Part shown: piece after piece, positions 8,774-56,215 of the stretch
How positions within the stretch are numbered: position 1 is the first letter of the stretch
How the letters are laid out: each line of letters starts with the position of its first letter
DNA from: Flavobacterium sp. SUN052
GTDB lineage: Bacteria > Bacteroidota > Bacteroidia > Flavobacteriales > Flavobacteriaceae
Direction of reading: 5' to 3'
Assembly (NCBI RefSeq): GCF_028867935.1
Contig: NZ_JAPQNS010000004.1
Span: 310,001 to 374,000, forward strand
DNA: 64,000 nucleotides
The notes under the pieces: generated by a model
The model's database searches: none
What the model saw: the letters and a program-made list of their open reading frames with translations, nothing else
Told to the model about the DNA's origin: nothing
Position numbers and translations under genes: made by a program

Positions 8774-10108
8774 TCAAACGGGATTGGGAAGGTCGGTAAT
8801 GCGGACCTCATTAATCCGCTTATTATCAGCTGAAACCACGTGAAAAAGAAACTGACCATAGCGAACTTCTTCTCCTGATTCGGGGAGATGGCTGAACAGT
8901 TCAAGCAGTAAACCGCCTAATGACTCGCTGTCCCCCCGAACATCATCAAAGGTGGTTGCGTCAACATCAAGAACCCTACATACGTCGGTCAGTGGTAATT
9001 TGCCTTCAACTAGTACTGTGTGATCGTCAATCCGCTTGAAGCCAGTAGGTGTTTCATCATCGAACTCGTCGTTGATATCGCCGAAGATCTCTTCAATAAT
9101 ATCTTCCAGCGTTACCAGCCCGCGCGTGCCGCCGTACTCATCGACCACAATAGCCATGTGTACTCGCCGACGCTGGAAATCCTGCATCAGATCGTCTACT
9201 TTTTTGGTTTCTGGAATGAAGAAAGCGGGTCGAAGTAAAGCCTGCCAGGCAAACGAATCATCGTCGTGAAGGTGGGGCAGCAGGTCTTTTATGTATAGAA
9301 TGCCCTCGATCTGATCAATAGTCTCTTTATAAACCGGCACCCGCGAAAATCCTGATGCGTTGATGCGGCTCATCAACTCCGTGAAGGTAAGGTCATCTTC
9401 AAACGCTGTAATATCCACCCGCGATTTCATAACCTGCCGGGCGGTGAGGTTACTGAAGTTTACAATCCCCTTCAATATTTCGCGTTCTTCAACGGTTGTT
9501 TCGGCTCCGGTCAATTCTACGGCCTGATTCAATTCTTCAACTGATAGCTTATAGCCACGTTTAGGAATTCGTTTGTCTAACTGATTGCTGAGCGTAACTA
9601 ATAGGGACGAAAGGGGACGAAAGATAAGCAGGGCAAACTGAGCTAAGGGTGTGGTTTTTCGGGCAACGGAAAGGCTATTCTGGCTGGCAAAAACCTTTGG
9701 GATTACCTCTCCACACAAAACGATCACCAGTGTCAAAGCAAGCGTTGTTCCCGACAGCACAATTGCGGATGAATGTGCCAGTTGAGACAACTCCCAGGAT
9801 AGGTACGTGACCATGACGACGATGGCAATATTGAGCAGGTTGTTGAAAATAACCAGCGAAGCCAGCAACCGGCGTGGACGGTCGAGCAGGGAAATAATGC
9901 GTTGATCGGCAGAGGTGTTACTCTCGCGGCAGGTAGTGCGGTCGTCAGGCGAGAGCGTAAAAAAGGCGACTTCGGTGGCCGATACCAGCGAAGCCAATGT
10001 AACTAGCAAAAGCACCAGGGCCGCTACAGGGCCGTATGAATTAAAATAGGTGCCCCAAACGTCATCCGTCGGGAGCACCTGTCGAGGAAGAGGATCACTA
10101 AGGTCCAT
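8774..10108 (-). CDS. gldE: GldE-like CNNM/CBS-domain/CorC membrane protein
   Basis: The 444-residue protein has an N-terminal CNNM/DUF21 domain with about four membrane segments (residues 28-195). A CBS pair follows (about residues 215-345; RVMKSRVDITAFEDDL, GILYIKDLLPHL and VVDEYGGTRGLVTLEDIIEEI are visible). It ends in a CorC/HlyC-type FAD-binding-like C-terminal domain. Proteins of this family are linked to Mg2+/Co2+ homeostasis. In gliding Bacteroidota, GldE is encoded after mutY and ssb and supports GldD and motility. Gene order mutY-ssb-gldE here supports the name. gldD itself does not follow. The ssb stop is 32 bases upstream, so these genes probably share a transcript. Confidence 0.82.
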   Translation of the reverse strand: MDLSDPLPRQVLPTDDVWGTYFNSYGPVAALVLLLVTLASLVSATEVAFFTLSPDDRTTCRESNTSADQRIISLLDRPRRLLASLVIFNNLLNIAIVVMVTYLSWELSQLAHSSAIVLSGTTLALTLVIVLCGEVIPKVFASQNSLSVARKTTPLAQFALLIFRPLSSLLVTLSNQLDKRIPKRGYKLSVEELNQAVELTGAETTVEEREILKGIVNFSNLTARQVMKSRVDITAFEDDLTFTELMSRINASGFSRVPVYKETIDQIEGILYIKDLLPHLHDDDSFAWQALLRPAFFIPETKKVDDLMQDFQRRRVHMAIVVDEYGGTRGLVTLEDIIEEIFGDINDEFDDETPTGFKRIDDHTVLVEGKLPLTDVCRVLDVDATTFDDVRGDSESLGGLLLELFSHLPESGEEVRYGQFLFHVVSADNKRINEVRITDLPNPV

Positions 10109-30324: not shown

Positions 30325-31008
30325 TTAATCGTTAAATCCATTGATCTCCTTTACCGCTCCGTTGTCTACCTCTACAATTCGGTGAGCGTATTGCTTTAAT
30401 CGAGGGTCATGCGTAACCACTGCCACCGACTTGCCACCATCGGCCAGATTGCGCAATTCGTTCATGACAATACCCAGTGAATCTTTGTCTAAAGAGGCCG
30501 TTGGTTCATCGCACAGCACCAGTTTAGGGTTCGTAACCAGGGCGCGGGCAATGGCGATGCGCTGTTGTTGACCGCCCGAAAGCTGTTTCGGTAGGTTGCG
30601 TCGTCGGTCGGTCATGCCCACAGTTTTGAGCGCCTGTTCGGTTCGGTCACGCGCTTCGGACGACCGAACACCCTGAAGTTGCAGGGGCATCATCACGTTC
30701 TCCTCTGCCGTAAGCGGAGCCAGCAGGTTGAAATTCTGAAACACGAAACCGATGGTGTTGAGCCGAAGTTTGGCCAGTGCTTTCTGATTCAGTTCATTAA
30801 TATGCTGGCCACCAACCCACAAATCGCCGTAGCTGGGGTAGATCACACAGCCCAACAACGACAGCAACGTGGTTTTTCCTGAACCCGATGGACCGATAAT
30901 GAGGAGCAGCTCACCTTCGTTCAGTTGTAATGTGGTTGGTTGGAGCGCCACAATGGTCTGGTCTCCTGTTTTGTATTCCTTGCCAACCCCTTTCAATTCA
31001 GCTATCAT
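30325..31008 (-). CDS. ABC transporter ATP-binding protein (LolD/MacB/DevA type)
   Basis: The 227-residue ATPase has a complete set of motifs: Walker A GPSGSGKTT (about residues 39-47), the Q-loop in GFVFQNFNLL, the signature LSGGQQQRIAIARAL (about residues 143-157), Walker B LVLCDEPTASLD, and the switch His in VAVVTHD. It powers the exporter formed with the downstream permease, adaptor and TolC genes. Its start overlaps the SDR stop by 4 bases (ATGA), indicating translational coupling. Confidence 0.93.
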   Translation of the reverse strand: MIAELKGVGKEYKTGDQTIVALQPTTLQLNEGELLLIIGPSGSGKTTLLSLLGCVIYPSYGDLWVGGQHINELNQKALAKLRLNTIGFVFQNFNLLAPLTAEENVMMPLQLQGVRSSEARDRTEQALKTVGMTDRRRNLPKQLSGGQQQRIAIARALVTNPKLVLCDEPTASLDKDSLGIVMNELRNLADGGKSVAVVTHDPRLKQYAHRIVEVDNGAVKEINGFND

Positions 31009-31676
31009 ACATGTTGGGAAGCTATGTGTTCAATTGCATCGACATCGAGAATCTCGCCAAGGTATTTTGTACAGGCGAGCAGGGCGACTTTGGCTACCGA
31101 TTCAACGGGAAGTGGGCGGTTTGGGCGAATATGGACTCCAATGTGTGGGTCGTTGAGCAGGTGTTGAATCTGTTCGTTTTCCAGAATAGTTTCTGGTTTG
31201 TCGGGACCATAAATAAGCCCCGGCCGCAGAATGCTGAGATGGAAGCCCAACGTGCGCAGGAAATTCTCCGAAGCCACCTTGTTTTCCATATAAGTCACTG
31301 GCGTTTCGGGGGCACCTGCACCTGCCGATAAGTACACAAATCGGCTAACTCCCGCCTGCTTTGCGGCCAATCCCACCGTACGAGCCGATTCAAAAATGAT
31401 CCGCTCGAAGGTCTGGTTCAGTTCGGGCTTTTCCTCAATGATACCGATACAGTGAATTACAGCGTGGCAATCTATTAAGTGTTGTTTCCACGAATCCAGA
31501 TCAAACACATCAGCATTAACCCACTCAACATAAGGTAGCGAATCGTTAATCAAATCTTTCGGCTGACCCGTGCGTGACAGACTTATGGTGTGAATCTCTT
31601 GCCGATTGGCCAGTTGGCATATTTGTCGTCCTACAAATCCATTGCCACCAGTTACAAGTATTTTCAGCGGTTGCAT
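31005..31676 (-). CDS. NAD(P)-binding epimerase-like protein (atypical SDR)
   Basis: The 223-residue Rossmann protein starts with the nucleotide-binding motif ILVTGGNGFVGRQI (about residues 6-19). VIHCIGII, SRFVYLSAGAG and a possible YMENK active-site element near residue 129 follow. It resembles the atypical SDRs related to complex I NDUFA9. It is the first gene of the exporter operon, overlapping the ATPase gene by 4 bases. This suggests that the exported compound is modified by, or related to, this enzyme, but the substrate is unknown. Confidence 0.8.
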   Translation of the reverse strand: MQPLKILVTGGNGFVGRQICQLANRQEIHTISLSRTGQPKDLINDSLPYVEWVNADVFDLDSWKQHLIDCHAVIHCIGIIEEKPELNQTFERIIFESARTVGLAAKQAGVSRFVYLSAGAGAPETPVTYMENKVASENFLRTLGFHLSILRPGLIYGPDKPETILENEQIQHLLNDPHIGVHIRPNRPLPVESVAKVALLACTKYLGEILDVDAIEHIASQHV

Positions 31677-31829: not shown

Positions 31830-32537
31830 ATGGATCAAGGGGAACAAAACGTAATCGATTTAGTAAACTATTGGGCTACCTACAGTGCCAATCACCCCGA
31901 TGCTGATCTGACCGGGTTTTGTCTACACTACTTAACTGAACACGCCCAACCTGCTGGCGTCAACAAATACCGACCTGTTGCCTCACCAGATGGCCTCTAC
32001 GATGAAAAATGGGTGGAGAGTTTGAGCGGAAAAGCCAATCGATCACTAGTGGAGATTCGGCCCGAAGCACGACTGGGGGCGTTGGTTGGCCGCCTGTCGA
32101 AATACGCTTATTTCTATTCGAAGAAGGCGATGCAGCCGCTCGACTTTAAGAGTATCGACGATCCTGTGTACCTGATTGTTTTAGTACAAATGGGTACGCC
32201 TAAAAAGAGTGAGCTTATTTATGAAATGATGGCTGAGTTCGCGTCGGGAATTGATGTAATTAACCGGCTGATTAAAATGGATTTGATCGAAGAGTTTCCT
32301 GATGAGCAGGACCGCCGATCGAAACGGTTGCGCATTACTCCCCAGGGTTTGTCGGTGATGCAGCAGTGCTTTCCCGTAATGAATAAAGTGGCCGATGTAG
32401 CCTACAGTTCGCTGACCGACGGTGAAAAAACGTTGTTGGTTACTATTCTGGATAAACTTGACCGATACCATGCTGATCATTACCGGCAGAGTAGGAATAG
32501 TGATTTCGACGAGGTGTATGATCGGATGGTGGGGTAA
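31830..32537 (+). CDS. MarR family transcriptional regulator
   Basis: The 235-residue regulator has a winged-helix domain in its C-terminal two thirds (about residues 85-215). MGTPKKSELIYEMMAEFASGIDVINRLIKMDLIEEFPDEQDRRSKRLRITPQG includes the recognition helix and the wing D-x-R-S-K-R. The N-terminal 80 residues are an extra helical region. It is divergent from the exporter operon and 27 bases upstream of an MFS gene, so it may control one or both. The likely ligand is a small exported compound. Confidence 0.85.
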   Translation: MDQGEQNVIDLVNYWATYSANHPDADLTGFCLHYLTEHAQPAGVNKYRPVASPDGLYDEKWVESLSGKANRSLVEIRPEARLGALVGRLSKYAYFYSKKAMQPLDFKSIDDPVYLIVLVQMGTPKKSELIYEMMAEFASGIDVINRLIKMDLIEEFPDEQDRRSKRLRITPQGLSVMQQCFPVMNKVADVAYSSLTDGEKTLLVTILDKLDRYHADHYRQSRNSDFDEVYDRMVG

Positions 32538-32564: not shown

Positions 32565-33793
32565 GTGCGCAATCGCCGACTGTATCACATTTATGCCATC
32601 ATTTTTATCGACGTTGTTGTCGGTTCAGCTATTGGACCGATCCTGCCCGAATTCGTAAAAGGCTATACCAATCCGCAATTATGGCTGGCATTAGGTACGG
32701 GCTTGTTTCTGGGTATGCAATTATTCTCGGCTCCGTTGCTTGGCAAACTGTCTGATGGATACGGGCGTCGTCCGATTTTCATCGTCTCATCCATCGGTAC
32801 CTTCCTGGCCGACTGCCTGTTGTTGCCCGTTCGGTTGGGCACCCAACTGGCCAACCGCTTTAGTGATGGCTTAACCAACGGCATGTATGCCACGGTTCGT
32901 TCGGCCATCACCGATATTTCACCCAAAGAAGACCTGTTCAAAAACCTGGGTATTGAAGGTGCTATTCTATCACTTGGGTTTGTGATTGGCCCGGCTGTTT
33001 CGGGCTTGCTACTAACTATTGTCGATGCCGCCAACAACGGCGTGGCGTCAAATGCCGAACAGGCGAGGGTAGTGGTGATTATGGCCGTTATATTATCGTC
33101 GGTGAACATCCTTTTAAGCTGGACTCTTCCGAAACGCACCCAAATCCACCCGGCATATCGACGCAGGAGTTAAAAGCAGAACTGGTCAACTCGATTAACG
33201 TACATACGCTTTGGTCGCGCTTGTCTGAAAAAGACCGTCAATACCGGACCGAAGGGAAAGTTAGCCTGAAAAAACTGGTAATGATGCAGTTGTTTCTGAC
33301 ACTCAGTACGGGCTATTATTTCTACTTCGTCACGTTCGCCAGCTTTGGAGAACTGCACATGGATGCCAAGTCGATCTCGTACTTCTTTATGTACTTTGGG
33401 GCGCTCAGTGTTGTGATCAATTTTGTGTTTTACACCTACCTGGCCGACCGCATCAACCAACGTCGGGGCATTCTGTGGTTAGCTGCCTTAGGCGCACCGG
33501 TGCTAGCCGGTTACGGGCTGGTGGGTACATCGGTAGTGAGTCTGTACATACTGGTCACCATCGACTGCCTGACACTCTCTCTTATTCAGGGATTGATCGA
33601 GGGCTTGATGGCGCAGCAAACCTCCGACGATGACCGGGGCGAAATATTCGGAATCAATCAGGCGTTGCAGGGAGTTGCCAGCTTTGGCACAACGCTGGTA
33701 TTTGGGGCACTCTCGTTATTGGATTTACGATTGCCTTTCGGCTGGTTTGGCGTTTGCCTGGCCGTAGTGGCGGTTTTGGCAGGCAGGAGGTAA
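32565..33793 (+). pseudogene. MFS transporter broken by a -1 frameshift
   Basis: The first half (GTG start at 32565, MRNRRLYHIYAIIFIDVVVG, to a stop at 33171-33173) holds the first six helices of an MFS drug-type transporter, including the loop signature GKLSDGYGRRP. The second half (helices 7-12) continues in the -1 frame. Read backwards from 33221, that frame is open through SSETHPNPPGISTQELKAEL, so the break is at about 33124-33132, where WTLP would join ETHPNPP. One missing base in CTTCC-GAA explains it. It may be a real pseudogene or a sequencing error. It was the likely partner of the MarR gene. Confidence 0.85.
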
Positions 33794-35156: not shown

Positions 35157-35471
35157 CTAGTAGGCGCCTAATCCATTTTCACGCGATATGATCACGTCCC
35201 TCAACTCGATGTATGGCTTACTGAACAACTCGGTATCGCGCAGGGCCTCCATAAACGAATAGTAGGCATTAAGATCGTCGCACGAAATGGCCATAACAGC
35301 CGTGACCTGAGCGTGAAAAGCTTCGGCGTCGAATAGGCGCACCTTGACCTCTTTTTCGAAGCGGGCAAAAATTGGCGATGCTTTACGGGCGAAAAAAGCT
35401 TCGCGCTGAGGTCTGGATAGGGTTAACCAGGCTGGGAGGGCCTGATACAGCACAAAAACAGTGTATTTCAT
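35157..35471 (-). CDS. Darcynin family protein
   Basis: Starting at 35471 gives MKYTVFVLYQALPAWLTLSR, which matches the N-terminus of darcynin-type proteins; an upstream ATG at 35495 adds 8 unsupported residues. The 104-residue product has the expected alpha/beta ferredoxin-like pattern (KVRLFDAEAFHAQVTAVMAISCDDLNAYYSFMEALRDTELF). The cellular role of the family is not established. It lies downstream of the exosortase N genes on the same strand. Confidence 0.72.
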   Translation of the reverse strand: MKYTVFVLYQALPAWLTLSRPQREAFFARKASPIFARFEKEVKVRLFDAEAFHAQVTAVMAISCDDLNAYYSFMEALRDTELFSKPYIELRDVIISRENGLGAY

Positions 35472-35540
35472 TCGGTCAGTGGTTTCACACTGCAAATAAA
35501 CCCTGTTGCTGAACCAGTTCTATTGAGAAAGGTAAGATAA

Positions 35541-36353
35541 TCAGTACAAGCGCCCGGTTTTGCCCCGGTCTGTGCGTAGCCCTGCCCCAATTCGTAGCCC
35601 CACATACCAGCCCGACGAGGTGAAGCCAACCTGCTGAATGGGATTGGTCTCGGTAAGAAACTCGGCCCTTGACCCAATTCGGTAGCCCCCATCAAAAGCC
35701 AGCACCAATGATCGTTCGCTATTTGTACAGTCGTCGTAGAGTCGCTGCACACTAAAGCGATAATTAGCGGTCAAGCCAAGGTCGATGGCTCCGGCGGTGG
35801 TGTTTAACTGCGTGGTTTGCGAGATGCCGGGGTTGTCTAAAGCCGACGATAGGGAGGGAGTCGTTTGCACACTATTAGCAATACGGAGTTTTATAGGCAT
35901 CGACATCACACCCAGATGGGGTATCACCTGAAATCCCCCCTTCTGATACACGCGGTAGCCCATTCCTAACCGAAACGTAGACATCGACATGTTGACGTTG
36001 TTGGTGCCGTTGGTCGAAGCACGGGTGCCCAGGCCCATATTAATTTCGGTATGTAGAAAAATTGGTTTCCGCGAAATCTTCATCTGTGTTCCAATGCCAA
36101 TCGTTCGGAACCGACCCGAAAGGGGCGAAAAACCATTGCGGGCTAACTCGTTGTTAAGCAGGTCAACGGGCAGGTTTTGCCAGCCAAGTCGGTAGTACGT
36201 GGTAATATCGCGGGTCCAGGCTCTACGCACGGGAGGACGGGTCTCGGTGTCGTTGGCTACCGGGCCTAGAGGAACGGGAATGGGCTGTGCCAGCGTCGGA
36301 AAACCAGTTACTAATAACAGCCCAATGAATAGTTTCGTAGTTGTTTTGGTCAT
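35541..36353 (-). CDS. Hypothetical outer-membrane protein
   Basis: The start at 36353 (MTKTTTKLFIGLLLVTGFPT) gives a signal peptide ending TLAQP; the longer frame from 36410 would begin in a word repeat. The 270-residue product has alternating strands with many Gly and aromatic residues (FRTIGIGTQMKISRKPIFLHTEINMGLG, WYVGLRIGAGLRTDRGKTGRLY), as in beta-barrels of Bacteroidota. It lies 63 bases after the exosortase gene on the same strand, so co-transcription is possible. Confidence 0.65.
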   Translation of the reverse strand: MTKTTTKLFIGLLLVTGFPTLAQPIPVPLGPVANDTETRPPVRRAWTRDITTYYRLGWQNLPVDLLNNELARNGFSPLSGRFRTIGIGTQMKISRKPIFLHTEINMGLGTRASTNGTNNVNMSMSTFRLGMGYRVYQKGGFQVIPHLGVMSMPIKLRIANSVQTTPSLSSALDNPGISQTTQLNTTAGAIDLGLTANYRFSVQRLYDDCTNSERSLVLAFDGGYRIGSRAEFLTETNPIQQVGFTSSGWYVGLRIGAGLRTDRGKTGRLY

Positions 36354-36416
36354 GGCTTGTTCGAAGATGTCATGTCGTTGACCGTGACACCTTCGAAAAC
36401 AAGATGTCATGTCTGG

Positions 36417-37517
36417 TCAACGAAGCAGCATCGCTAACTGGTGTGTTGTCAGCGGTTTTTCTGCGGTGATATTTACGAGCGAAAAGCCATTCTCGCCCCG
36501 CACCATTCGCCAGCGGAAATCAAGCTGTCCAATAGTCTGGTAAGTGCCATTCGTGAACCACCAGGCGGTATAAAGCGATGGTCGATTTGTGTGCTGTAAT
36601 TCGGCCGTATAAACGGGTTTGCCAGCTATTCGTTGCTCCCGAACGCGCCGTAGTTCATAGCCCCCGCCACGCCAGCAAACCGCCGGACTATGCTCTGCGC
36701 TCCACCAGTCGGGGAGGGGTTTGAGATAAAGTAATAAGCCTGGTTTAGTGAGTTGGTAAAAGCCGTCTTTGGTAATTTTTCGAACGATAAATCCCTGTTG
36801 AGCGAAGGCCGAAACGGTTTTCTGCTGAGTGATTGAATTGGCTGAGTTAGGTTGGGCGGTAAAGGCCATCAACCCAGCTCCCAGGGCCAGGCCTGTCATG
36901 CCCAGCGAAACGCTGACCCATCTGCCAGTGCCTAACACGGCTTGTTTCTCTTCTTGTACGTTTCCAAAACGGGCTACCGTGAAACGTGCCAGCCACCACG
37001 CGGGTAACCAAGCATATACCACCACGCAAACCAGCCCGACAAGCTCGTGCAAAGGTGAGTCGGGCCCCACCCCAAAGGCCACCAGCAACATAATCCGAAC
37101 CAGATTACACAGAATGGTCAAGCCAAAAGCCACCGCTGCATAAACTAGGACCCAGCCAAATGGCACCTCAGAATTGGCCTGTCGCTCGTGCCACATGAGC
37201 CAGAAAACAGCTACCACCACCGACAAACCTGTCATGTGCAGCCCCATGCAGGCAGGGTCAACGGCTATATCGACAGGGCCAATGCCGGGTACTTGCCGCA
37301 CCAGCACATTGCCTTCGGTTTGTACGTTGAACCCACCTGACCGCAACAGGATACCCGCCCATTCGCTCAGGCATAGTCGGATGGCAAACCCGAAAATAGC
37401 CAGACCATACCGTAACACTGGCGACAGTAGTAACAACACTAATAGCCTGCCCGTCCAGTGGCTTCGCATGCCCGCAAACAGGAGCAGGGCAAGGGTCAAG
37501 AGAAGGGTTGAATCCAT
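36417..37517 (-). CDS. xrtN: Exosortase N with an EpsI-like C-terminal region
   Basis: Exosortases are membrane transpeptidase-like enzymes that process PEP-CTERM-type tails. The 366-residue protein has about eight membrane helices and the full catalytic set: Cys90 in DPACMGLH, Arg141 in CNLVRIMLL and His157 in SPLHELVG. After residue 215, a periplasmic part of about 145 residues contains HSPAVCWRGGGYELR (residues 276-290), close to the HSP-x-x-C-x-x-G pattern of EpsI/DUF3485 proteins that are usually separate genes. The preceding gene encodes a protein with a PEP-CTERM-like tail, its presumed single substrate, 13 bases upstream. Confidence 0.85.
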   Translation of the reverse strand: MDSTLLLTLALLLFAGMRSHWTGRLLVLLLLSPVLRYGLAIFGFAIRLCLSEWAGILLRSGGFNVQTEGNVLVRQVPGIGPVDIAVDPACMGLHMTGLSVVVAVFWLMWHERQANSEVPFGWVLVYAAVAFGLTILCNLVRIMLLVAFGVGPDSPLHELVGLVCVVVYAWLPAWWLARFTVARFGNVQEEKQAVLGTGRWVSVSLGMTGLALGAGLMAFTAQPNSANSITQQKTVSAFAQQGFIVRKITKDGFYQLTKPGLLLYLKPLPDWWSAEHSPAVCWRGGGYELRRVREQRIAGKPVYTAELQHTNRPSLYTAWWFTNGTYQTIGQLDFRWRMVRGENGFSLVNITAEKPLTTHQLAMLLR

Positions 37518-37530
37518 ATTTTTAAGTCAT

Positions 37531-40212
37531 TTAATGATGCGAGGCCAATGACCATTTATGACGGCGAAGCCAGATGACTACTAATCCCATTAGCCCAATC
37601 ATTACCCATTCGTGAGGTTCGGGTACGGCTCCTTCTTCTTTAAGTGTAGCATTTTCGAGGCCATTGTTGTCCTTTTTGATACCAAAACGGTCGTAATCTG
37701 CCTCACTTTCCAACACGATAAGGCTCGACAGGGGGGAAAGAACGTGGGCATATTGAGCCTCGGCCAGGAGGGCGTCGTTTTTGCGATAGGACTGATCGAA
37801 ATACTGCCGACCAATACTGGCTACGAAATGGTTATAGCCATACAGCCGCGCCAAATGATCCGGCGCTTTTGTCGCACTGCCGCTGGCTGGGCTGGCGTTC
37901 CAGTGGGGCGAAGCGGAACAGACAACGCCAGCCGTTGGAATGGCTATTGTGTTCGGTTGAGTTTCCAATATTGGAAACGTTTTCAAACCCAGGCCAGCTT
38001 CTATGGCTTCCGCAGAGGCCGAGGTAAGGTTGAGAGCACGGAGTTCGGTGAGGGTTTTGAGGTAACCCGCTGTTTCAGTACTGATGTTGACCGTGCGGAG
38101 TGGCGCATTTTTAGTAGCACTTTGGGTCAGGCTTTCGGCAAAACGGCTTCCTGTTAGATCGTTTAGAAACACCGAACGGTTGGTAGATTGGGTGATAAAC
38201 AGTGCCTGATTCGAGTTTTCGATGCGGTAGAGGGGGAACAGCGAAAACTGTTGTGCATTTAGTCGTTTAAAATAACCTGCCCGGTTTGCATCGGTGAGTT
38301 GCATCATACCGTCGTCATACACAAATACCGGCTTGTGTTTTACGGCTCGCCAAACGGTTTCGAACTCCGCCAGCGACCAGGCTGCGTTAAGATCCAGATA
38401 CACTGTCTCGGGGGTGAATGGGGCCATTTTAGGCTGGTAAGGCGCTAACTGATACCCTACACTGTCCAGCACAAACGGTTCTGTTAACAAGGCTGGAGTC
38501 CGCATCCGTAGTACCCAGTCCGGTTTATAATCTCCCCGGTGGGTGAGTTGACTACCCGGCCCTTTCTCAAATGAAAACGGAGCCGACAAACCGACTGGCT
38601 GCTGATCGAAATCAATTTGTACTGTTTCGGTAGCTCCGCTTGCCGTTGGGCCGTCGAACCACGGGTTTTCATACACCAGCTCGGTACCTTCCAGTCGAAG
38701 GGGCGAGGTAATGCCGAGTTTTACCTGTCGTTCCTGACCGGCTGGGCAGGGAAACACCCTCACCGTTACGCGCCCGCCTTCCTGCCAGTACACTACCGCC
38801 GGGTCGCGCTCACGAAATCTAGATTCCACATTCACCACCTGCCGATAGGCGGAGTCTGCTTTTGCTACTGTAGTAAGCCGGGCTTTCTCTTCTTTGCCAT
38901 TGATCCACAGCGACATACTCGTCGCTACGGAGCCAGTGGGGAGGTAGAACGTATAAAGCGCTTCGCCTGTTCGCTGTTCGGCAGCGTTACGAACACGAAT
39001 TGTTTTTTCAGTGTAAGCTAGCCGAAACTGCGGCCAGATTCGAGCCTGGGTCACCACACTTTGGGTGGTCAGGTGCCGCCCCGACCAGAATTTTTCTTCG
39101 GTCTGGTGGCGAGCATTGTTGATTGCTTTCAGCAGGCTAATTTTTTCGGCTTGAGACAGCGTTGCGGGTGGCAATAAGCGATTGGCCATTACCACCAGAG
39201 GGTCGTGTTCTTTCACGTCGTCCATAGCCGTGAGACCATCTAAGCCACCACCCCAGTTATCGCTGAAGGGACCTTCATCGTAATGCATTCCTACACCCAG
39301 CATCCGGTTCATGATCCAGTGCGTTACGGGGTTGTTGGCATCAATACGTTGCGCCATCAACACCCATTCGGGCAGGTCTTCAGTTCGGCGGAGTACCGCT
39401 TCATTTCGCACCGTTTCAATGCGGGTAAGGTTCTGGCTCCAGGCTACAAAAAACAGGAACGTGACTAGTACAGGAAGCGATAACCCCACCCAGATTGGGG
39501 TACGCAATTCCTTGTTGGCTCGGAAATCGGCTGTTAATCGCCGACTCAGCGCAATGGTAATCAGCAAGGGGATAAACGTGTGAACCGTCATCCCGAGTGA
39601 CAGCAAGCCAACGATACTAATAGGATATAGCTCGGCCACGAAGACCGTCGCATAGGTGAATAACCATACTGATCCGGCCAGTAGAAAGTAAATTACCTGC
39701 CGTATCCGAATGCCAAGAAAGGGTGTCCAGGCATAGGCTGTCATGGCCGCACCCGCTGCTACCAGGGCCACACAAAGCCAGTCAGTCGATTGCTGAAACA
39801 CGGCTACGTCGCGGTTCAGGGCAAAGGCACTAATCAGAAACAACACCAAGTTCACCCAGCGCGACGCTCGTTTCGATACGGATGATGCTCTCTTGAATTT
39901 CCATAATCCGTTGTTCATTAATAAAATAGCGTAGCAGATGGCAATTCCATAGTGTAGGAAAAACAACATCATGTCGGGAGCCGTCGGCTGCGTGCGTAAG
40001 ACGAATGCATACACACCGAATAGGCCAGCTGAGATGGCTAGCAGCATCAGACCCGTTGTCAGAATGGAATCCCGAAAGGGCATAAGCCAGGGCGGGCTCG
40101 GTAGGGCGTGGGGCGTTTCGTGCCACTCAGCAGAGGGCAGAGTGGAGTTGTGGGGTTCTCCCAGGGTTGGAGCCTCTTCGGGTCGATCAACGAATTTAGA
40201 ATCCTTGTTCAT
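37531..40212 (-). CDS. XrtN-system VIT domain protein (exosortase N substrate)
   Basis: This 893-residue protein is unusual for a sorted protein. It begins with about seven membrane helices (residues 48-262). A periplasmic part follows, with a VIT domain at about residues 395-515 (TIRVRNAAEQRTGEALYTFYL). Further on is a region resembling a degenerate von Willebrand A domain (TVYLDLNAAWSLAEFETVWR). The tail is a sorting signal: VPEPHEW (about residues 863-869), one hydrophobic helix and RRHKW. It is directly upstream of the exosortase gene. A palindrome, TACTTTG-N5-CAAAGTA, sits 5 bases before its start codon. Confidence 0.85.
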   Translation of the reverse strand: MNKDSKFVDRPEEAPTLGEPHNSTLPSAEWHETPHALPSPPWLMPFRDSILTTGLMLLAISAGLFGVYAFVLRTQPTAPDMMLFFLHYGIAICYAILLMNNGLWKFKRASSVSKRASRWVNLVLFLISAFALNRDVAVFQQSTDWLCVALVAAGAAMTAYAWTPFLGIRIRQVIYFLLAGSVWLFTYATVFVAELYPISIVGLLSLGMTVHTFIPLLITIALSRRLTADFRANKELRTPIWVGLSLPVLVTFLFFVAWSQNLTRIETVRNEAVLRRTEDLPEWVLMAQRIDANNPVTHWIMNRMLGVGMHYDEGPFSDNWGGGLDGLTAMDDVKEHDPLVVMANRLLPPATLSQAEKISLLKAINNARHQTEEKFWSGRHLTTQSVVTQARIWPQFRLAYTEKTIRVRNAAEQRTGEALYTFYLPTGSVATSMSLWINGKEEKARLTTVAKADSAYRQVVNVESRFRERDPAVVYWQEGGRVTVRVFPCPAGQERQVKLGITSPLRLEGTELVYENPWFDGPTASGATETVQIDFDQQPVGLSAPFSFEKGPGSQLTHRGDYKPDWVLRMRTPALLTEPFVLDSVGYQLAPYQPKMAPFTPETVYLDLNAAWSLAEFETVWRAVKHKPVFVYDDGMMQLTDANRAGYFKRLNAQQFSLFPLYRIENSNQALFITQSTNRSVFLNDLTGSRFAESLTQSATKNAPLRTVNISTETAGYLKTLTELRALNLTSASAEAIEAGLGLKTFPILETQPNTIAIPTAGVVCSASPHWNASPASGSATKAPDHLARLYGYNHFVASIGRQYFDQSYRKNDALLAEAQYAHVLSPLSSLIVLESEADYDRFGIKKDNNGLENATLKEEGAVPEPHEWVMIGLMGLVVIWLRRHKWSLASHH

Positions 40213-40463: not shown

Positions 40464-40760
40464 CTACAACGTTTTAATGAACTCTTCCAGAGCGTTCAGG
40501 TGGTCGGTAAAGGCGGTTTTGCCCGCATCAGTGGCCTGGTAAGTGGTATTGGGTTTACGGCCGACGAACTGTTTCATTACCAACACATAACCAGCTTCTT
40601 CGAGGGCACGAAGGTGCGTAGCGAGGTTACCGTCGGTGAGGGCCAGCAGTTCTTTGAGTCCGTTGAAATTCATTGACTCGTTGACCACCAGCACCGACAT
40701 GATACTCAGCCGCGCTTTACTCTCAAATGCCTTGTTGAAGTGGGCCAGCAGGTCTTTCAT
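40464..40760 (-). CDS. Winged-helix transcriptional regulator (HTH_34 type)
   Basis: The 98-residue regulator is almost entirely a winged helix: NKAFESKARLSIMSVLVVNE, then FNGLKELLALTDGNLATHLRALEEAGYVLVMKQF with the recognition helix, then the wing VGRKPNTTYQATDAGKTAF. It fits the 'winged helix DNA-binding' (PF13601) group, which often pairs with a membrane protein gene. Here it overlaps the upstream membrane protein gene by 4 bases (ATGA). The palindromes at 40218 and 42663 are its likely targets. Confidence 0.85.
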   Translation of the reverse strand: MKDLLAHFNKAFESKARLSIMSVLVVNESMNFNGLKELLALTDGNLATHLRALEEAGYVLVMKQFVGRKPNTTYQATDAGKTAFTDHLNALEEFIKTL

Positions 40761-41422
40761 GAGGTGGGTTTAACGCCCATTTTTTGAGCGGAGTTTCGAT
40801 CGTATTTCCAGTACATGGCTGTTCCGTAGATAATGTGCAGCACTCCGAAACCAATGGTCCAGAACAGCAGGTTGTAGCCCGACAGGAACAGCGCAAGCAA
40901 ACCGAGCGCAATTTCGGAATAGCCGAGGTATTCTACATCCCGTACGGTGTATTTACTTCCATTGAGCAGCGCCAGACCGTAAAAAACGAGCGTAGCGGGA
41001 GCCGTTAGAAACAAAAGCCGGTAGTGAATCAGGGCCAGACAAAAGATTCCTCCCGTAACGAGCGGCACTGCCATTGCCCACAGCAACCGACGCGATGCCT
41101 GATTCCAGACCCGTTGTCCCTGCAAACGGGCTTTCCGAACCGTAAAAAACGTACCAAGAATCAGCGCTGCCACCAGCACGGCAATAGCCGTTTTGATCAA
41201 AAACTGATTGGCTTCCAGAAAGCGTGACGCACCATATGGCGCCAGGCGGTTATAACTCAGCACCGTGAGCCAATCGGTGCGGAGCCGCATATAGACGACT
41301 GCCGATCCGATCATGGCGACAATACCCGCCGAAACGCCTGATAAGCCGCTCAGGGAGAGGAACTTGGAGGACCGCTCCATCAGGCTTCGGATTTCGGTCA
41401 GGGTTTGCAGGTGTTCGTTCAT
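40757..41422 (-). CDS. Membrane protein paired with a winged-helix regulator
   Basis: The 221-residue protein has five or six membrane helices (SGVSAGIVAMIGSAVVYMRL, TAIAVLVAALILGTFFTV, LLWAMAVPLVTGGIFCLAL, and later pairs). It starts with a helical cytoplasmic segment, MNEHLQTLTEIRSLMERSSK. This type often precedes PF13601 regulators in Bacteroidota and may sense membrane state for the regulator. No enzyme motif is visible. The gene is translationally coupled to the regulator. Confidence 0.7.
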   Translation of the reverse strand: MNEHLQTLTEIRSLMERSSKFLSLSGLSGVSAGIVAMIGSAVVYMRLRTDWLTVLSYNRLAPYGASRFLEANQFLIKTAIAVLVAALILGTFFTVRKARLQGQRVWNQASRRLLWAMAVPLVTGGIFCLALIHYRLLFLTAPATLVFYGLALLNGSKYTVRDVEYLGYSEIALGLLALFLSGYNLLFWTIGFGVLHIIYGTAMYWKYDRNSAQKMGVKPTS

Positions 41423-41439: not shown

Positions 41440-41625
41440 TCAGTTGTGGTCATTAGTTGTCATTCGCTGCGCTGTCGTTTGGTAGTCATTTGCTACGCGT
41501 CATTAATGTCATTTGCTATGCGTCATTAATTGTCATTCGCTACGCTGTCATTTGGTGGGCATTTACTGGCAATGACTATCAATGACGACTAATGACTATC
41601 AATGACCATAAATGACTACCAATGA
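41440..41625. repeat. Quasi-palindrome of iterated TCATT/AATGAC words
   Basis: The left part repeats GTCATT, TTGTCATTCGCT, ACGCGTCATTAAT and TTGCTACGC words. The right part repeats AATGACTATC, AATGACGACT, AATGACCATA and AATGACTACC. The two parts are complementary in many registers, so alternative hairpins can form. The right part enters the 3' end of the diacylglycerol kinase gene and encodes its last residues (GSHLWSLIVISRH). Confidence 0.7.
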
Positions 41626-41959
41626 CCAAAACTCCAATCACTACCGCTACGATGCTGACGATTAGAACAGCACCGGCGGCCATGTCTTTTATGTTGCCAA
41701 TAGTTGGGTTATGGCCAGGCGATACCACGTCGCACAGTTTTTCGATGGCCGTGTTTACAGCTTCGGCGGCCCACACCAGTCCAATTTGGGTCAGAATAAT
41801 GGCCCATTCCGTTACCGAAAATTGAAGCCAAAATCCTACGCTAATCACCACAATAGCAACCAGCAGATGCACTTTAGCGTTGTTTTCGTACCGAAACAGG
41901 TCGATAATTCCCTGGCCAGCAAACCGAAAACTGCGCAATACTTTAGGAATGTTGATCAT
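41579..41959 (-). CDS. dgkA: Diacylglycerol/undecaprenol kinase family protein
   Basis: The start at 41959 (MINIPKVLRSFRFAGQGIID) suits the family; the longer frame adds residues that overlap DUF1361. The 126-residue product has the DgkA three-helix layout. It shows the hallmark EAVNTAIEKLCDVVSPGHNP (about residues 69-88) and KDMAAGAVLIVSIVAVVIG. The last residues, GSHLWSLIVISRH, are encoded by the TCATT word repeat, so the normal C-terminus has been replaced or extended by repeat DNA. It lies 17 bases inside the end of the DUF1361 gene on the same strand. Confidence 0.85.
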   Translation of the reverse strand: MINIPKVLRSFRFAGQGIIDLFRYENNAKVHLLVAIVVISVGFWLQFSVTEWAIILTQIGLVWAAEAVNTAIEKLCDVVSPGHNPTIGNIKDMAAGAVLIVSIVAVVIGVLVIGSHLWSLIVISRH

Positions 41960-42653
41960 TAGTTCGTTTCTCGTCGCGAACAAATAACCAAAAAGCGACG
42001 TATAATCCAAACAACACCAACCCATACACTAACGTCAGCTTAATAGCTAGATGGTCGTGCGCCGATTGCCAGACCGCCTGACCCAGCATCCAGGGCTTGC
42101 TCACCAGGTGCCAACTGTTCCACCGGCCCCACCGACCAAGGTAGATCCCGAAACCCGCTAGCATCTGGCACGCGGCCATCAGTCCCCAGGCATTCCAGCG
42201 CCTTACTAACTGATCGAACAGGTCATGCGCCAAATAGCTGGAATACATGCCCGACAGGAGGCCCGTCATCGCAAACAGGAAGATCGTCATGGTATCAAAC
42301 CAAAGCAACGGCGCCTGAAGGCTCTGGATATGAAACAGATCGGTGATAATGTAGGGGGCATTAGGCATAAACAGCAGCCATAAAGCCAAGCCAGCCCACA
42401 CACCCACACGACCCACTACCCGGCTCTGAATCAGGTCGCGGATCACCAATTGAACACCCAGCGGAAACCACGCCAGAAAGACGTTCCAGGAGAGCATGAC
42501 GAAAAACCACCAATTGGCCGTGAGCAGGCCTCGGCCCGTAGCCATCAGAATACCAACGGCCGTGAGACAGGCTAGAGCCCGACTTCCCCGGCCCGACGTA
42601 TTTTCGACATGAAGGGCAGGAAGGGGGGAGACAGAAAGAAAAGGATGTTGCAT
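41943..42653 (-). CDS. DUF1361 membrane protein
   Basis: The start at 42653 (MQHPFLSVSPLPALHVENTS) follows the palindrome at 42663; a longer frame from 42701 would run through it. The 236-residue integral membrane protein has about six helices. It shows the DUF1361 signatures WNVFLAWFPLGVQLV and WLLFMPNAPYIITDLFHI, then YSSYLAHDLFDQL and a late WGRWNSWHL. The family function is unknown. The shared palindrome with the exosortase substrate gene suggests joint regulation. Confidence 0.85.
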   Translation of the reverse strand: MQHPFLSVSPLPALHVENTSGRGSRALACLTAVGILMATGRGLLTANWWFFVMLSWNVFLAWFPLGVQLVIRDLIQSRVVGRVGVWAGLALWLLFMPNAPYIITDLFHIQSLQAPLLWFDTMTIFLFAMTGLLSGMYSSYLAHDLFDQLVRRWNAWGLMAACQMLAGFGIYLGRWGRWNSWHLVSKPWMLGQAVWQSAHDHLAIKLTLVYGLVLFGLYVAFWLFVRDEKRTNDQHS

Positions 42654-49983: not shown

Positions 49984-50109
49984 AACGAACAGGTAACAGC
50001 GAGCAACTAACAGTTAAAAGACCTGGTGTGGTACAATCACAAAAGTAGTTATAAACTGTTGGCTGCTCATCGTTAACTGTTCACTGCTGGTTGTTCGCTG
50101 CTAACTGTA
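49984..50109. repeat. Quasi-palindrome of GAACAG/CAACTAACAG words
   Basis: The left part has AACGAACAGGTAACAGCGAG and CAACTAACAGTT; the right part has AACTGTTGGCTGCTC, AACTGTTCACTGCTGG and GTTCGCTGCTAACTGT. The words pair in several registers and are shared with 13401-13483. The right part runs into the 3' end of the desaturase gene and encodes its last residues (AANNQQ). Confidence 0.6.
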
Positions 50110-51574
50110 CTGCAATCTTGGCCGATAATAAACACAACGGAATACCTCCGCCCGGATGCACACTGCCCCCCACAAAATACAGATTTTTGATTTTGGAGGA
50201 GAAATTGGGATGCCGCATAAAGGCCGCAAACCGATTGTTGGAAGCTGTTCCATACAAAGCCCCTTGCGCCGATGATGTACGGGCTTCGATGGTACGCGGG
50301 TCCAGAATCGCTTCGCACTCAATCAGCGGAGCCACATCGACGCCGAGGTTGTGGCTTAGTTTGCGAATCACATCCTGCCGCGTTTGCGCGATAATTGCGT
50401 CCCAATCCTGCCCTTCGTTGGCGGGGGCGTTAAGCAAAATAAACCAGTTTTCGCAACCGGGGGGCGCATCGTCGGGCTTGGTTTTCGACGTGATATTTAT
50501 GTAACTCGTCGGGTCTTCATAAATCCGGTCTCGCCGTTGAAACAGATGCTCAAACTCTGTTCGGTAGTCGTTGGAGAAGAAAATATTGTGCATGTCTAGC
50601 TCCGGAAACTGCCGCCGAATACCCCAGTAAAAAATAAGGCCCGACGAAGATCGGGGTTGGCTCAACGTCTGTTCCGGTGCGCGCTGAGTGGGCATCAACC
50701 GCCGATATGTAGGGGTGACATCCATGTTAGAAACTACAATTGAATAGCAGCTCAACTGGCCGGTCGCTACTTGAACTCCCACTGCTTTCCCATTCTCCAC
50801 CACAATCTCCTGCACGGGCGTATTGTAATGAAACACAACACCCAGCCGTTGCGCCAGCGCTACCAGTGAGTTGGTAATGCTAACCATGCCTTTTTTGGGA
50901 AAGAACGCTCCGATGTTATACTCCAAATGCGGAATGATGTTGAGCAGGGCGGGCGTCTGGTAAGGGTCGGAACCGTTGTAGGTGGCGTAGCGATTGAAAA
51001 GTTGTACCGCTTTGGGATTGCTGAACGTTCGGGAATTGGCGGCATTCATGGTGCCAAACACCCCCAGTTTAGGCAAGTTCAGGTAGCCACGCATGGCTTT
51101 CTTGCTGAGCCACGTACTGACCTTATGCAGGGAATTGTGCAGGAATAGCTGATCGGTAATCTCGTATTTGAAGGCGCTGTCGGCCAGAAAGCTGCGAATA
51201 CGGTCGGCGGGTTCACCGAGTTGGGTTTCTACTTCACGGGCAAAGGCGTCCGTATCAGCCCAGGCGGTCAGTCGGGTTTGGTCATCCCAGAAATACCGAC
51301 AAATTTCAGGAAGCCTGACGTACTCAAAATGGTTGGAAGTATTCTCTCCGGCCAGCTGGAAAAGTTCTTCTACAAGCTGCGGTAAGGTAAACAGCGATGG
51401 CCCCGCATCGAAGCGATACGTACCTGATTCTCCCTGCACATCAAACGTCGACAGTTTACCGCCCGGATAGGCATTTGCCTCGAACACATCAACCTGGTAC
51501 CCTTTCACTGCCAGCCGGATAGCCGACGCAATACCACCAATTCCAGCCCCGATAATAGCCGCTTTTTTTGTCAT
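50081..51574 (-). CDS. Phytoene desaturase-family carotenoid oxidoreductase (CrtI/CrtD type)
   Basis: The start at 51574 (MTKKAAIIGAGIGGIASAIR) puts the FAD dinucleotide-binding GxGxxG at residues 9-14; a longer frame from 51643 adds 23 unsupported residues. The 497-residue flavoprotein shows DVFEANAYPGGKL, RFDAGPSLFTLP and the C-terminal FVGGSVHPGGGIPLCLLSAK, all hallmarks of the CrtI group. I cannot separate phytoene desaturase from 1-hydroxycarotenoid 3,4-desaturase (CrtD). No other carotenoid gene adjoins. The last residues come from a word repeat. Confidence 0.88.
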   Translation of the reverse strand: MTKKAAIIGAGIGGIASAIRLAVKGYQVDVFEANAYPGGKLSTFDVQGESGTYRFDAGPSLFTLPQLVEELFQLAGENTSNHFEYVRLPEICRYFWDDQTRLTAWADTDAFAREVETQLGEPADRIRSFLADSAFKYEITDQLFLHNSLHKVSTWLSKKAMRGYLNLPKLGVFGTMNAANSRTFSNPKAVQLFNRYATYNGSDPYQTPALLNIIPHLEYNIGAFFPKKGMVSITNSLVALAQRLGVVFHYNTPVQEIVVENGKAVGVQVATGQLSCYSIVVSNMDVTPTYRRLMPTQRAPEQTLSQPRSSSGLIFYWGIRRQFPELDMHNIFFSNDYRTEFEHLFQRRDRIYEDPTSYINITSKTKPDDAPPGCENWFILLNAPANEGQDWDAIIAQTRQDVIRKLSHNLGVDVAPLIECEAILDPRTIEARTSSAQGALYGTASNNRFAAFMRHPNFSSKIKNLYFVGGSVHPGGGIPLCLLSAKIAVQLAANNQQ

Positions 51575-51896
51575 CTCAATAGCATAAACACGAAGGTACG
51601 GTATGTTGTTGACCTGCTTTATGCAATTGAAAGTTGATGGCACTGATTTTATGAAATGCCTTACGTCAGAAGTTTGAAATAACGGTTAACTGATTGTAGC
51701 GTTTTCACTAAACAAATGCAGCCTGATAAGTATATTTTTAGTTTATAAACGGCATTGAAAATATATTTTCAATGCCAAATTTTATTAAATAATGGCCCTG
51801 CACTTGAATTATTTATTCCATGTAATAGTCTAATTTATAATATATCACCGTTGTTCTGTAAGTTTGCGGCATGTTCTACATATTAACCCCGTTGAA
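51575..51896. other. AT-rich intergenic region with a promoter
   Basis: This 322-base stretch between divergent genes is A/T-rich with no credible gene. It contains a small dyad GAAAATATATTTTC (about 51758-51771). It also holds the -7 element TAAGTTTG (51859-51866) that serves the next plus-strand gene. I see no RNA structure in it. Confidence 0.6.
51859..51866 (+). promoter_or_regulatory. -7 promoter element TAAGTTTG
   Basis: An exact TAnnTTTG match, 30 bases before the ATG at 51897. No good -33 box is visible in the A/T-rich upstream DNA. Confidence 0.5.
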
Positions 51897-53722: not shown

Positions 53723-56215
53723 ATGCGATATACACATCTTCCTACCTTTTGTTTGCTGGTCACCTTGCTAGTGCAAGTGCCCGACTCGCTGCGCGCTCAG
53801 TCGTATCAGACTCCGCCCAAACCCCTCGCCGATCTGGTAACGGTGGCACCCACACCCACGGTGAGCGTATCGGGTAAGGGCGATTACCTGCTGATTCTGG
53901 AACGGGCAGCCAACCCAACCATCGCCGAACTGGCTCAACCAGAATTTAAGTTGGCAGGTCTCCGCTTGAACCCAGCTACCAACGGGCCCAGCCGCACGAT
54001 TCACCTGACAGGCTTGCGGCTCAAGAAATTGCCAACTGGGGCTGAGGTTGCCATCAGCGGATTGCCTTCGCCAGCTCAGTTGAGCAACGTGCAGTGGTCG
54101 CCCGATGAAACCAAAATTGCGTTTACCAATACAACCAGTAACCGGATTGAGTTGTACGTGGCCGACCTTGCTTCTGCCACTGCCAAGCGCGTGGGTGACA
54201 TGGCTTTAAACGGGGTGTTGGGTGTACCATTTCAGTGGTTGTCCGATAGCCAAAGCCTGATCGTAAAAGCCATTCCAGCAAACCGGGGAGCGGCTCCGGC
54301 AGATAATCGTGTGCCCGAAGGACCAACCACGCAAGAGAACGTTGGTGGACGGCGGGGACAGGCCCCTACCTACCAGGACTTGCTCAAGAACCCCTCTGAC
54401 GAACAACAGTTTGCCTATTATGCAACCGCTCAGGTGATGCGTGTTGGACTAGACGGACAGGCGCGCCCCCTTGGAGAGCCGGGTTTAGTGATGACCGCTA
54501 TTCCCTCACCCGACGGTCGGTATGTGATGACCGAAACGGCCCACAAACCATTCTCGTACCTGGTGCCTGTCCGTCGGTTTCCAACCAAAACCGACGTGTT
54601 TAGCATCGACGGAACGCTGGTAAAAACGCTTGCCGACACACCATTGCAGGAAAGTGTGCCCTATAGCCCTGATGGTGCGCCAACGGGTCCTCGAAATTAC
54701 ACCTGGCGCGATGATGTGCCTGCTTCGGTTTATTACACGGAAGCTCAGGACAAAGGTGATCCAAAAGTGAAAGCCGAGATTCGCGACAAAGTGTTCCTGA
54801 TTGATGCACCATTTACGGCGCAACCCAAAGAAATTTATGCCGCTGCGTACCGATTCCGCGGTTTCGAATGGGGTAACGAGAATACCGCGCTGGCTCAGGA
54901 GTTCTGGTGGCAGTCGCGCAAATCGGTTACCAAAGTGGTGAACCCAACCAACTGGCAGGCAACTGTTTTATTTGATCGCTCTAACGAAGACCGCTACGGT
55001 GACCCCGGTGATCCCGATACCAAGCATAATCAGTATGGTCGCACCGTGCTGAACTTGTTGCCCAACAATGAGGTGATGATGATTAACAACCAGGGGGCCT
55101 CGCCCAAAGGCGATCAGCCGTTTGTGAGCTTGCTGAACCTCACCACCAAACAAAGCCGCATTCTGTGGCGGTCGGGCGGTGCGGGCCCTGATGCTACTGT
55201 TTTCGAGCGGCCAATCAACGTGCTCGATGCTACTAAAGGGTTGATTCTGACTACCCGCGAAACGCCCGACGAGAATCCGAACTATTACATTCGCAACCTG
55301 TATCCAAAGGGTAAAAAGGCGGTGGCCCTTACCCAGGTAACTACGTTTCCACACCCCTATCCTCAGTTGAAAGGCGTTCAGAAACAACAGCTTCGCTACA
55401 AACGTGCCGATGGGGTAGAACTTTCGGCAACGCTTTACTTGCCAGCAGGGTATAAGAAGGAGCAGGGGCCGCTACCCACGTTTTTATGGGCTTATCCGGC
55501 AGAATTTAAGGACAAGGAAGCAGCAGGACAGCTGTCAGGGTCACCGTATCAGTTCAACCGGATCAACTACTGGGGTGCCGCTGCTTTTGTGACGATGGGA
55601 TACGCAATTCTCGACAATGCCAGCATCCCTATCGTGGGTGAGGGCGACAAAGAACCCAACGATACATACGTAGAACAACTGGTATCGAGCGCTAAAGCCG
55701 CCATTGACGAAGGTGTTCGGCTGGGCGTAGTTGATGCTACTCGTGTTGGTGTGGGTGGCCACTCATACGGCGCGTTTATGACGGCTAACCTATTGTCCCA
55801 CAGTAACCTGTTCCGGGGTGGTATTGCCCGCAGCGGTGCGTATAACCGGACGCTTACACCCTTTGGTTTCCAGAACGAACAACGCTCATACTGGCAGGCA
55901 CCCGAAGTGTATAACGCGATGTCGCCCTTTATGAACGCTGACAAAATGAAGACGCCCCTGTTGCTCGTTCACGGTGAGGCCGACAATAACACCGGTACTT
56001 TCCCGATTCAGTCGGAGCGGTACTACAATGCCCTGAAAGGTTTCGGTGCTACAACTCGCTTAGTGTTGTTGCCTTACGAAAGCCACGGCTATACGGCAAA
56101 AGAGTCGCTGTTGCACATGCTTTGGGAAATGAACGGCTGGTTAGATGCTTACGTGAAAAACCCCAAGCCAACAACGGCTGGTCAAACTCCATCGAAGGTC
56201 GGGGGCGGAAAGTAA
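53723..56215 (+). CDS. S9 family (prolyl oligopeptidase-type) peptidase
   Basis: The 830-residue exported enzyme starts with a signal peptide (LLVTLLVQVPDSLRAQS). An N-terminal beta-propeller follows (about residues 40-540), then an alpha/beta hydrolase domain. The catalytic Ser is in VGGHSYGAFMTANLL (about residue 677), the Asp in LLVHGEADNNTG (about residue 759) and the His in YESHGYTAKES (about residue 793). It cleaves peptides or glutamyl/acyl-peptide bonds in the periplasm. The C-terminal tail (GQTPSKVGGGK) shows no sorting domain. No neighbour explains its substrate. Confidence 0.9.
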   Translation: MRYTHLPTFCLLVTLLVQVPDSLRAQSYQTPPKPLADLVTVAPTPTVSVSGKGDYLLILERAANPTIAELAQPEFKLAGLRLNPATNGPSRTIHLTGLRLKKLPTGAEVAISGLPSPAQLSNVQWSPDETKIAFTNTTSNRIELYVADLASATAKRVGDMALNGVLGVPFQWLSDSQSLIVKAIPANRGAAPADNRVPEGPTTQENVGGRRGQAPTYQDLLKNPSDEQQFAYYATAQVMRVGLDGQARPLGEPGLVMTAIPSPDGRYVMTETAHKPFSYLVPVRRFPTKTDVFSIDGTLVKTLADTPLQESVPYSPDGAPTGPRNYTWRDDVPASVYYTEAQDKGDPKVKAEIRDKVFLIDAPFTAQPKEIYAAAYRFRGFEWGNENTALAQEFWWQSRKSVTKVVNPTNWQATVLFDRSNEDRYGDPGDPDTKHNQYGRTVLNLLPNNEVMMINNQGASPKGDQPFVSLLNLTTKQSRILWRSGGAGPDATVFERPINVLDATKGLILTTRETPDENPNYYIRNLYPKGKKAVALTQVTTFPHPYPQLKGVQKQQLRYKRADGVELSATLYLPAGYKKEQGPLPTFLWAYPAEFKDKEAAGQLSGSPYQFNRINYWGAAAFVTMGYAILDNASIPIVGEGDKEPNDTYVEQLVSSAKAAIDEGVRLGVVDATRVGVGGHSYGAFMTANLLSHSNLFRGGIARSGAYNRTLTPFGFQNEQRSYWQAPEVYNAMSPFMNADKMKTPLLLVHGEADNNTGTFPIQSERYYNALKGFGATTRLVLLPYESHGYTAKESLLHMLWEMNGWLDAYVKNPKPTTAGQTPSKVGGGK

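Follow-up and report, generated by a model that had tools for sequence, protein, structure and literature searches.

Several EpsH proteins have been described as carrying a C-terminal region homologous to EpsI, a protein to which the same 2006 account assigns no known function (PMC1569441), and two later papers, in the parts on which we draw, concern mutant phenotypes rather than reactions. In the wider enzyme family, ArtA of Haloferax has an active-site cysteine (Cys173) and acts on diverse proteins with PGF tails, which form a tripartite C-terminal signal; lipid attachment was shown for this enzyme, while the thioester–amine chemistry was proposed by its authors (PMC7157517). VIT/vWA-type proteins are also in print with LPXTG (and a dedicated sortase), GlyGly-CTERM or PEP-CTERM tails (PMC3237569). 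Closest of all are two curated families of NCBIfam, TIGR04476 (exosortase N, XrtN) and TIGR04477 (XrtN system VIT protein). Here we analyze a gene pair of this kind in a 64,000-nucleotide stretch of DNA from Flavobacterium sp. SUN052 (contig NZ_JAPQNS010000004.1, positions 310,001 to 374,000; hereafter the window, to which all coordinates refer). XrtN resembles ArtA in being an enzyme of the wider family with a putative active-site cysteine, but appears to serve a single polytopic protein that ends in a PEP tail.

An earlier note on this DNA, made from the letters alone, had placed two open reading frames (ORFs) here, and both are present on the reverse strand, as are all features of the pair given below: the 366-residue xrtN at 36417–37517 and, directly upstream at 37531–40212, the gene of the 893-residue proposed sole substrate, whose stop lies 13 nt before the xrtN ATG. 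The note's naming of the enzyme as exosortase N holds, as XrtN scores 236.8 bits on TIGR04476 (cut-off 200) and 36.7 bits on PF09721 (cut-off 25.7), and the substrate 795.1 bits on TIGR04477 (cut-off 250); in Pfam, Exosortase_EpsH and VIT, respectively, are each matched above cut-off. By these scores, the pair belongs to a curated, already named system, from which it shows no essential difference, and its gene order and tail are repeated in all seven relative loci that we compared. About 8,000 candidates were scored for each protein, and the listed relatives (120 of 170 for the enzyme and 120 of 356 for the substrate), many of which NCBI or JGI annotates as exosortase N or XrtN system VIT protein, form with the respective window protein the 121 aligned rows on which all conservation counts below are based. 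AlphaFold2 (AF2) models were obtained for both XrtN (predicted local distance difference test, pLDDT, 91.1; predicted template modelling score, pTM, 0.86) and the substrate (pLDDT 90.5, pTM 0.85). A sequence search of the PDB with both proteins gave nothing convincing (one weak match at E 0.27, and two at E 0.34 and 0.6), and tblastn with XrtN found no match in plasmids and only one chance match of 31 residues in phages (E 7).

The substrate ends in VPEPHEW, 13 hydrophobic residues, RRHKW and then SLASHH, confirming the sorting tail that had been read directly upstream of the enzyme gene (residues 863–887, 37552–37626), for which no counterpart elsewhere in the genome was found. The PEP motif is invariant, with G861, P864, E865, P866 and W869 kept in 121 of 121 rows, E868 in 120 and H867 in 113. 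Conservation that extends past PEP in this way (GxxPEPxEW) might be expected of an enzyme that recognizes one protein only. The general PEP-CTERM model TIGR02595 (cut-off 16 bits) gives this tail 17.2 bits in a genome search and 10.7 bits in a whole-protein scan.

When the genome of the strain (8,106,526 bases in 38 contigs) was searched with a profile built from 17 XrtN-type tails, the window tail was recovered at E 3.7e-17, with one other place at 6.83. TIGR02595 passed its cut-off once, at the same tail, and PF09721 found one exosortase place at E ≤ 1; two further weak TIGR02595 places are unconvincing, the first lying 477 residues before the end of a 650-codon frame and the second falling in a frame of 62 codons that lies opposite one of 355 codons. 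The genome-wide hunt for further PEP-CTERM-like tails that the note had proposed thus left the window tail as the only convincing one, and its apparent sole substrate stands as far as tested. In each of seven relatives' genomes (four Larkinella, one Cytophagales metagenome-assembled genome and two Emticicia), the profile finds a single XrtN-type tail, at 3.8e-13 or better, all else lying at 0.37 or above, and PF09721 has exactly one match at E ≤ 0.001, adjoining the tail. No set of PEP-CTERM proteins was found in any of these eight genomes with TIGR02595 and the XrtN-tail profile, a search that an unusual tail could escape. In a phylum sample of 395 genomes, TIGR04477 was above cut-off in five, the window's included, and in the other four (L060–L063) an XrtN-like ORF with the EpsI motif lies directly downstream, that of L061 scoring 337 bits on TIGR04476; 103 of the 395 genomes have a PF09721 match at E ≤ 1e-4. 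Two genomes (G253 and G317) hold an additional weak exosortase match at another place, under cut-off, and for the XrtN of G317 PF09721 did not reach 1e-4. With a single tail and a single exosortase in the strain and in 7/7 relatives, the proposal that XrtN and the VIT protein form a dedicated one-enzyme, one-substrate system is supported at the level of genome content.

Cys90 (37248–37250), the proposed nucleophile by analogy with ArtA Cys173, together with Arg141 (37095–37097) and His157 (37047–37049), makes up what we take to be the catalytic residues of an exosortase. All three are present where the note had seen them and are kept in 119 (with one D and one gap), 119 and 120 of 121 rows, respectively, the exceptions being rows P0076 and P0113. 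Compared to other exosortase N proteins, the window XrtN is a short form at its N-terminus: 88 of the 121 rows have at most 30 residues ahead of the column of its Met1, 26 have more than 60 and seven lie between, some rows being fragments.

The C-terminal part of XrtN (residues 228–366, 36420–36836) is homologous to EpsI and presumably periplasmic, the homology having been supposed from the motif HSPAVCWRGGGYELR (HxPxxCxxGxGW/Y; residues 276–290, 36648–36692). This motif is common to EpsI and XrtN and conserved in both: in XrtN, His276 and Cys281 are found in 120 of 121 rows (exception P0110) and G284 and G286 in all 121, and the equivalent H, P, C, G and G of EpsI proteins are kept in 119–120 of 120. 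A profile–profile comparison of this region with 120 EpsI-family proteins (hhalign) gave 96.4%, and comparisons drawn from 23 EpsI loci gave 95.2% (6 loci) and 88.8% (all 23), while 30 shuffles against the combined EpsI set reached 4.6%. The profile check against EpsI/DUF3485 that the note had suggested was therefore positive for EpsI but not for DUF3485: PF11984 gives XrtN 11.1 bits, under the Pfam gathering cut-off of 26.1, for which reason we file the region as EpsI-homologous and not as a DUF3485 member, and TIGR02914 was not among the NCBIfam matches of XrtN at E ≤ 1. EpsI is a separate protein in the EpsI/DUF3485 family (PF11984, TIGR02914), whereas it is fused to the enzyme in XrtN. That this fusion is noteworthy, as had been suggested, is not supported: the homology of an EpsH C-terminal region to EpsI is in print (PMC1569441), NCBIfam describes TIGR02914 as 'exosortase C-terminal domain/associated protein EpsI', and the models for XrtN, XrtO and XrtD are matched in their C-terminal parts, under their cut-offs, by an EpsI that stands alone (L032). 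Because its His and Cys are near-invariant, it is plausible that the EpsI domain of XrtN holds a second site.

The substrate is the multi-helix VIT protein that had been described. Its N-terminal membrane domain (residues 49–262, 39427–40068, borders approximate) has about seven helices: the AF2 model places seven between residues 49 and 274, and hydropathy gives seven hydrophobic segments in a somewhat different placement. The 48 residues ahead of it are hydrophilic, and the idea that substrate helices substitute for the N-terminal helices absent in the short XrtN was rejected on this ground. The VIT domain (PF08487, 35.8 bits, cut-off 26.5; residues 397–499, 38716–39024) forms part of an ectodomain (residues 378–843, 37684–39081) whose model matches the fold of inter-alpha-inhibitor heavy chain 1 (PDB 6fpy) over 401 residues, with 10% identity and a root-mean-square deviation (rmsd) of 7.9. 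At the position expected for the metal ion-dependent adhesion site (MIDAS, DxSxS) of a vWA domain, which we placed by eye at the end of a predicted strand, the substrate has DxNxxW (residues 607–612, 38377–38394), with D607 and W612 in 121/121 rows and residue 611 being A in 44 and S in 44; the canonical MIDAS is absent from this site, since position 609 is N rather than S in 119 of 121 rows. Thus, human heavy chain 1 and the window ectodomain have the heavy-chain fold and a VIT domain in common, and heavy chain 1 undergoes C-terminal processing (PMC7170535) where the substrate has a predicted sorting tail; unlike the heavy chains, the substrate is a membrane protein of bacteria that has about seven helices at its N-terminus, no canonical MIDAS and no convincing sequence match in the PDB. 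Given the modelled N-terminal helices, the product likely remains membrane-bound.

What the sequences and models establish is a gene pair with a single tail of its kind, in which the enzyme has the conserved Cys/Arg/His and an EpsI-homologous domain and the substrate has a multi-helix N-terminus and a heavy-chain-like ectodomain. On balance, we think it probable, with considerable reserve, that exosortase N is a dedicated enzyme that cuts its substrate at or near PEP, holds it as a thioester and transfers it to an acceptor, for the maturation or anchoring of one adhesin-like membrane protein rather than the surface export of many. The N-terminal helices of the substrate would lie in the inner membrane and the ectodomain would reach into the periplasm, and the C-terminal helix would keep the PEP motif at the periplasmic face, where Cys90 of XrtN, aided by Arg141 and His157, would attack the bond at or near PEP. 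The tail peptide would then be released, with the substrate held by XrtN as a thioester that would be resolved by an acceptor. This acceptor is most likely a lipid bearing an amine, as has been suggested for ArtA, and the EpsI domain of XrtN probably serves to bind either it or the tail. As its N-terminal helices remain, the product, barring an additional cut at its N-terminal side, would stay in the inner membrane, now fixed by its C-terminus too, and surface export therefore fits this substrate poorly.

The conserved Cys/Arg/His suits a cysteine protease no less than a transferase, and the N-terminal helices would hold the product without a new anchor, so that XrtN might be a plain protease, with water resolving the intermediate and the substrate keeping only its N-terminal anchor. 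We regard this as rather unlikely, since ArtA couples cleavage to lipid attachment (PMC7157517) and the conserved EpsI domain with its own His and Cys suggests more than hydrolysis. The same three residues, kept in 119–120 of 121 rows, would be needless if the tail were left uncut and served as a docking helix in a stable complex with XrtN, the pair being a sensor or signalling unit; one substrate per enzyme, the adjacent genes and the conservation past PEP to GxxPEPxEW, as for a fixed interface, would suit such a complex, which we nevertheless hold to be very improbable.

The nature of the acceptor raises a further alternative, in which a polysaccharide or glycolipid takes the place of a simple lipid and links the substrate to the matrix of the envelope in the way that heavy chains are linked to chondroitin sulfate or hyaluronan. 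The 401-residue match to heavy chain 1 points this way, as do the loss of a C-terminal pro-domain by the heavy chains, whose C termini become ester-linked to polysaccharide (PMC7170535), and the company that exosortases keep with exopolysaccharide genes (PMC1569441). However, a common fold shows no common chemistry, the match has 10% identity and an rmsd of 7.9, and no clear polysaccharide gene was seen among the 22 other window ORFs and the five neighbours in relatives that were scanned, many other ORFs being unscanned; the nearest to one was a generic NAD-dependent epimerase-family protein (31005–31676). We consider such an acceptor improbable. Bolder, and in our view a long shot, is the thought that the inter-alpha-inhibitor pathway has a bacterial counterpart in XrtN systems, in which an integrin-like protein of the heavy-chain fold would lose its tail and have its new C-terminus joined covalently to a lipid-linked sugar or matrix polysaccharide, with two sites on a single polypeptide, Cys90/Arg141/His157 cutting in the membrane and His276/Cys281 of the EpsI domain handling the acceptor on the periplasmic side. 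If this were true, the substrate, keeping its about seven N-terminal helices, would be a strap with one end clamped to the inner membrane and the other to the envelope matrix.

Several observations weigh against the reading of XrtN as a dedicated transferase with a built-in EpsI domain and a sole substrate. Its lipid acceptor is borrowed from archaeal ArtA, whose chemistry is itself a proposal. The hydrophobic stretch of the tail is short, its 13 residues falling under a simple hydropathy threshold, and in some rows there are few basic residues at the cytoplasmic end. The 48 N-terminal residues, which the topology places inside, hold 4 K+R against 8 D+E, and the loop charges fit this topology only partly. 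As to EpsI, comparison with the other 17 loci alone (L016–L031 and L036) gave 3.6%, which is chance level, and the homology becomes clear only once EpsI proteins of the HDPxYC type are taken in. In the seven relatives, TIGR02595 passed its cut-off once (G462), at a place other than the XrtN tail, and it listed the XrtN tail in one genome, under cut-off; this general model is weak on XrtN tails, and other unusual tails could therefore be missed. A family sample, the sole search for XrtN without a VIT partner, found XrtN in 1 of 149 genomes, the window's own, but it says little about real relatives because the kinship labels look unreliable, the aspartyl-tRNA synthetase of 'same genus' genomes being 67–70% identical to that of the window genome and that of 'same order' genomes 63–70%. 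Finally, neither a paper describing XrtN in the sense of exosortase N nor an experimental study of the system was found in the open-licence PMC literature.

A related arrangement is found in the exosortase K/MSEP-CTERM system (TIGR04287/TIGR04286), in which a single exosortase likewise adjoins a polytopic, VIT-related substrate that carries a C-terminal tail. The two kinds of substrate look homologous, the window protein scoring 45.1 bits on TIGR04286 (E 3.6e-12, under the cut-off of 150). The MSEP-CTERM proteins of L014, L015, L076 and L077, which have many N-terminal hydrophobic segments, score 42–59 bits on TIGR04477. The tail has MSEP in place of PEP, exosortase K lies upstream of its substrate whereas xrtN lies downstream, and exosortase K is short (open frames of 183 and 210 residues in L014 and L015, the two loci looked at, where it adjoins the MSEP-CTERM gene), its L014 copy being without the EpsI motif whereas XrtN has the EpsI region. 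As MSEP-CTERM proteins share this build, with exosortase K adjoining, polytopic VIT-related substrates of dedicated exosortases are a wider group, not all of which probably needs EpsI. We also considered 25 loci chosen by weak TIGR04477 matches (L064–L088; two are MSEP-CTERM proteins, in one, L087, the match lies outside VIT, and the locus end truncates most ORFs). Motifs of the YPNP type, which are typical of the sorting tails of the type IX secretion system, occur in 7 of these 25. Thus, the exosortase N identity, the EpsI homology and the dedicated pair survive from the earlier interpretation, while besides the noteworthiness of the fusion two further claims are not supported: that the polytopic build is unique, as MSEP-CTERM proteins share it, and that a VIT domain is odd on a sorted protein, given these motifs and the tailed VIT/vWA proteins in print (PMC3237569).

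With two genes, one enzyme that contains its own EpsI region and a single large, distinctive substrate, the system comes close to being the simplest in which to study the cut, the attachment and the role of EpsI, and, as bacterial exosortase chemistry and the role of EpsI appear open, such a clean test bed is of interest. The heavy-chain-like fold adds a concrete, testable idea, that of the product as an envelope adhesin.

Six nucleotides past the xrtN stop lies a possible third gene of the operon (35541–36410, reverse strand), perhaps an outer-membrane beta-barrel (PF13505, 14.4 bits, cut-off 28.7); as a conserved third gene it was rejected, having a same-place relative in one of the seven loci (L007). 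Upstream of the substrate gene are a winged-helix regulator and a 221-residue membrane protein that overlap by four bases (40464–41422, reverse strand); relatives of the latter and of a diacylglycerol kinase gene (41579–42025) appear, within the stretches examined, in just one of the seven loci (L007). A Darcynin-family protein of unknown function is encoded at 35157–35495 on the reverse strand (PF17074, 54.6 bits), and the forward-strand frames 32565–33173 and 33221–33793 look by eye like two halves of one major-facilitator-type transporter, possibly a split gene, adjoining what by eye looks like a MarR-type regulator (31830–32537). Elsewhere in the window, a forward-strand ORF at 53723–56215 matches a lasso peptide isopeptidase model at 78 bits, under its cut-off of 400, and two reverse-strand ORFs are above cut-off for the gliding motility-associated protein GldE (8774–10108, 510.2 bits) and the 1-hydroxycarotenoid 3,4-desaturase CrtD (50081–51643, 658.2 bits).

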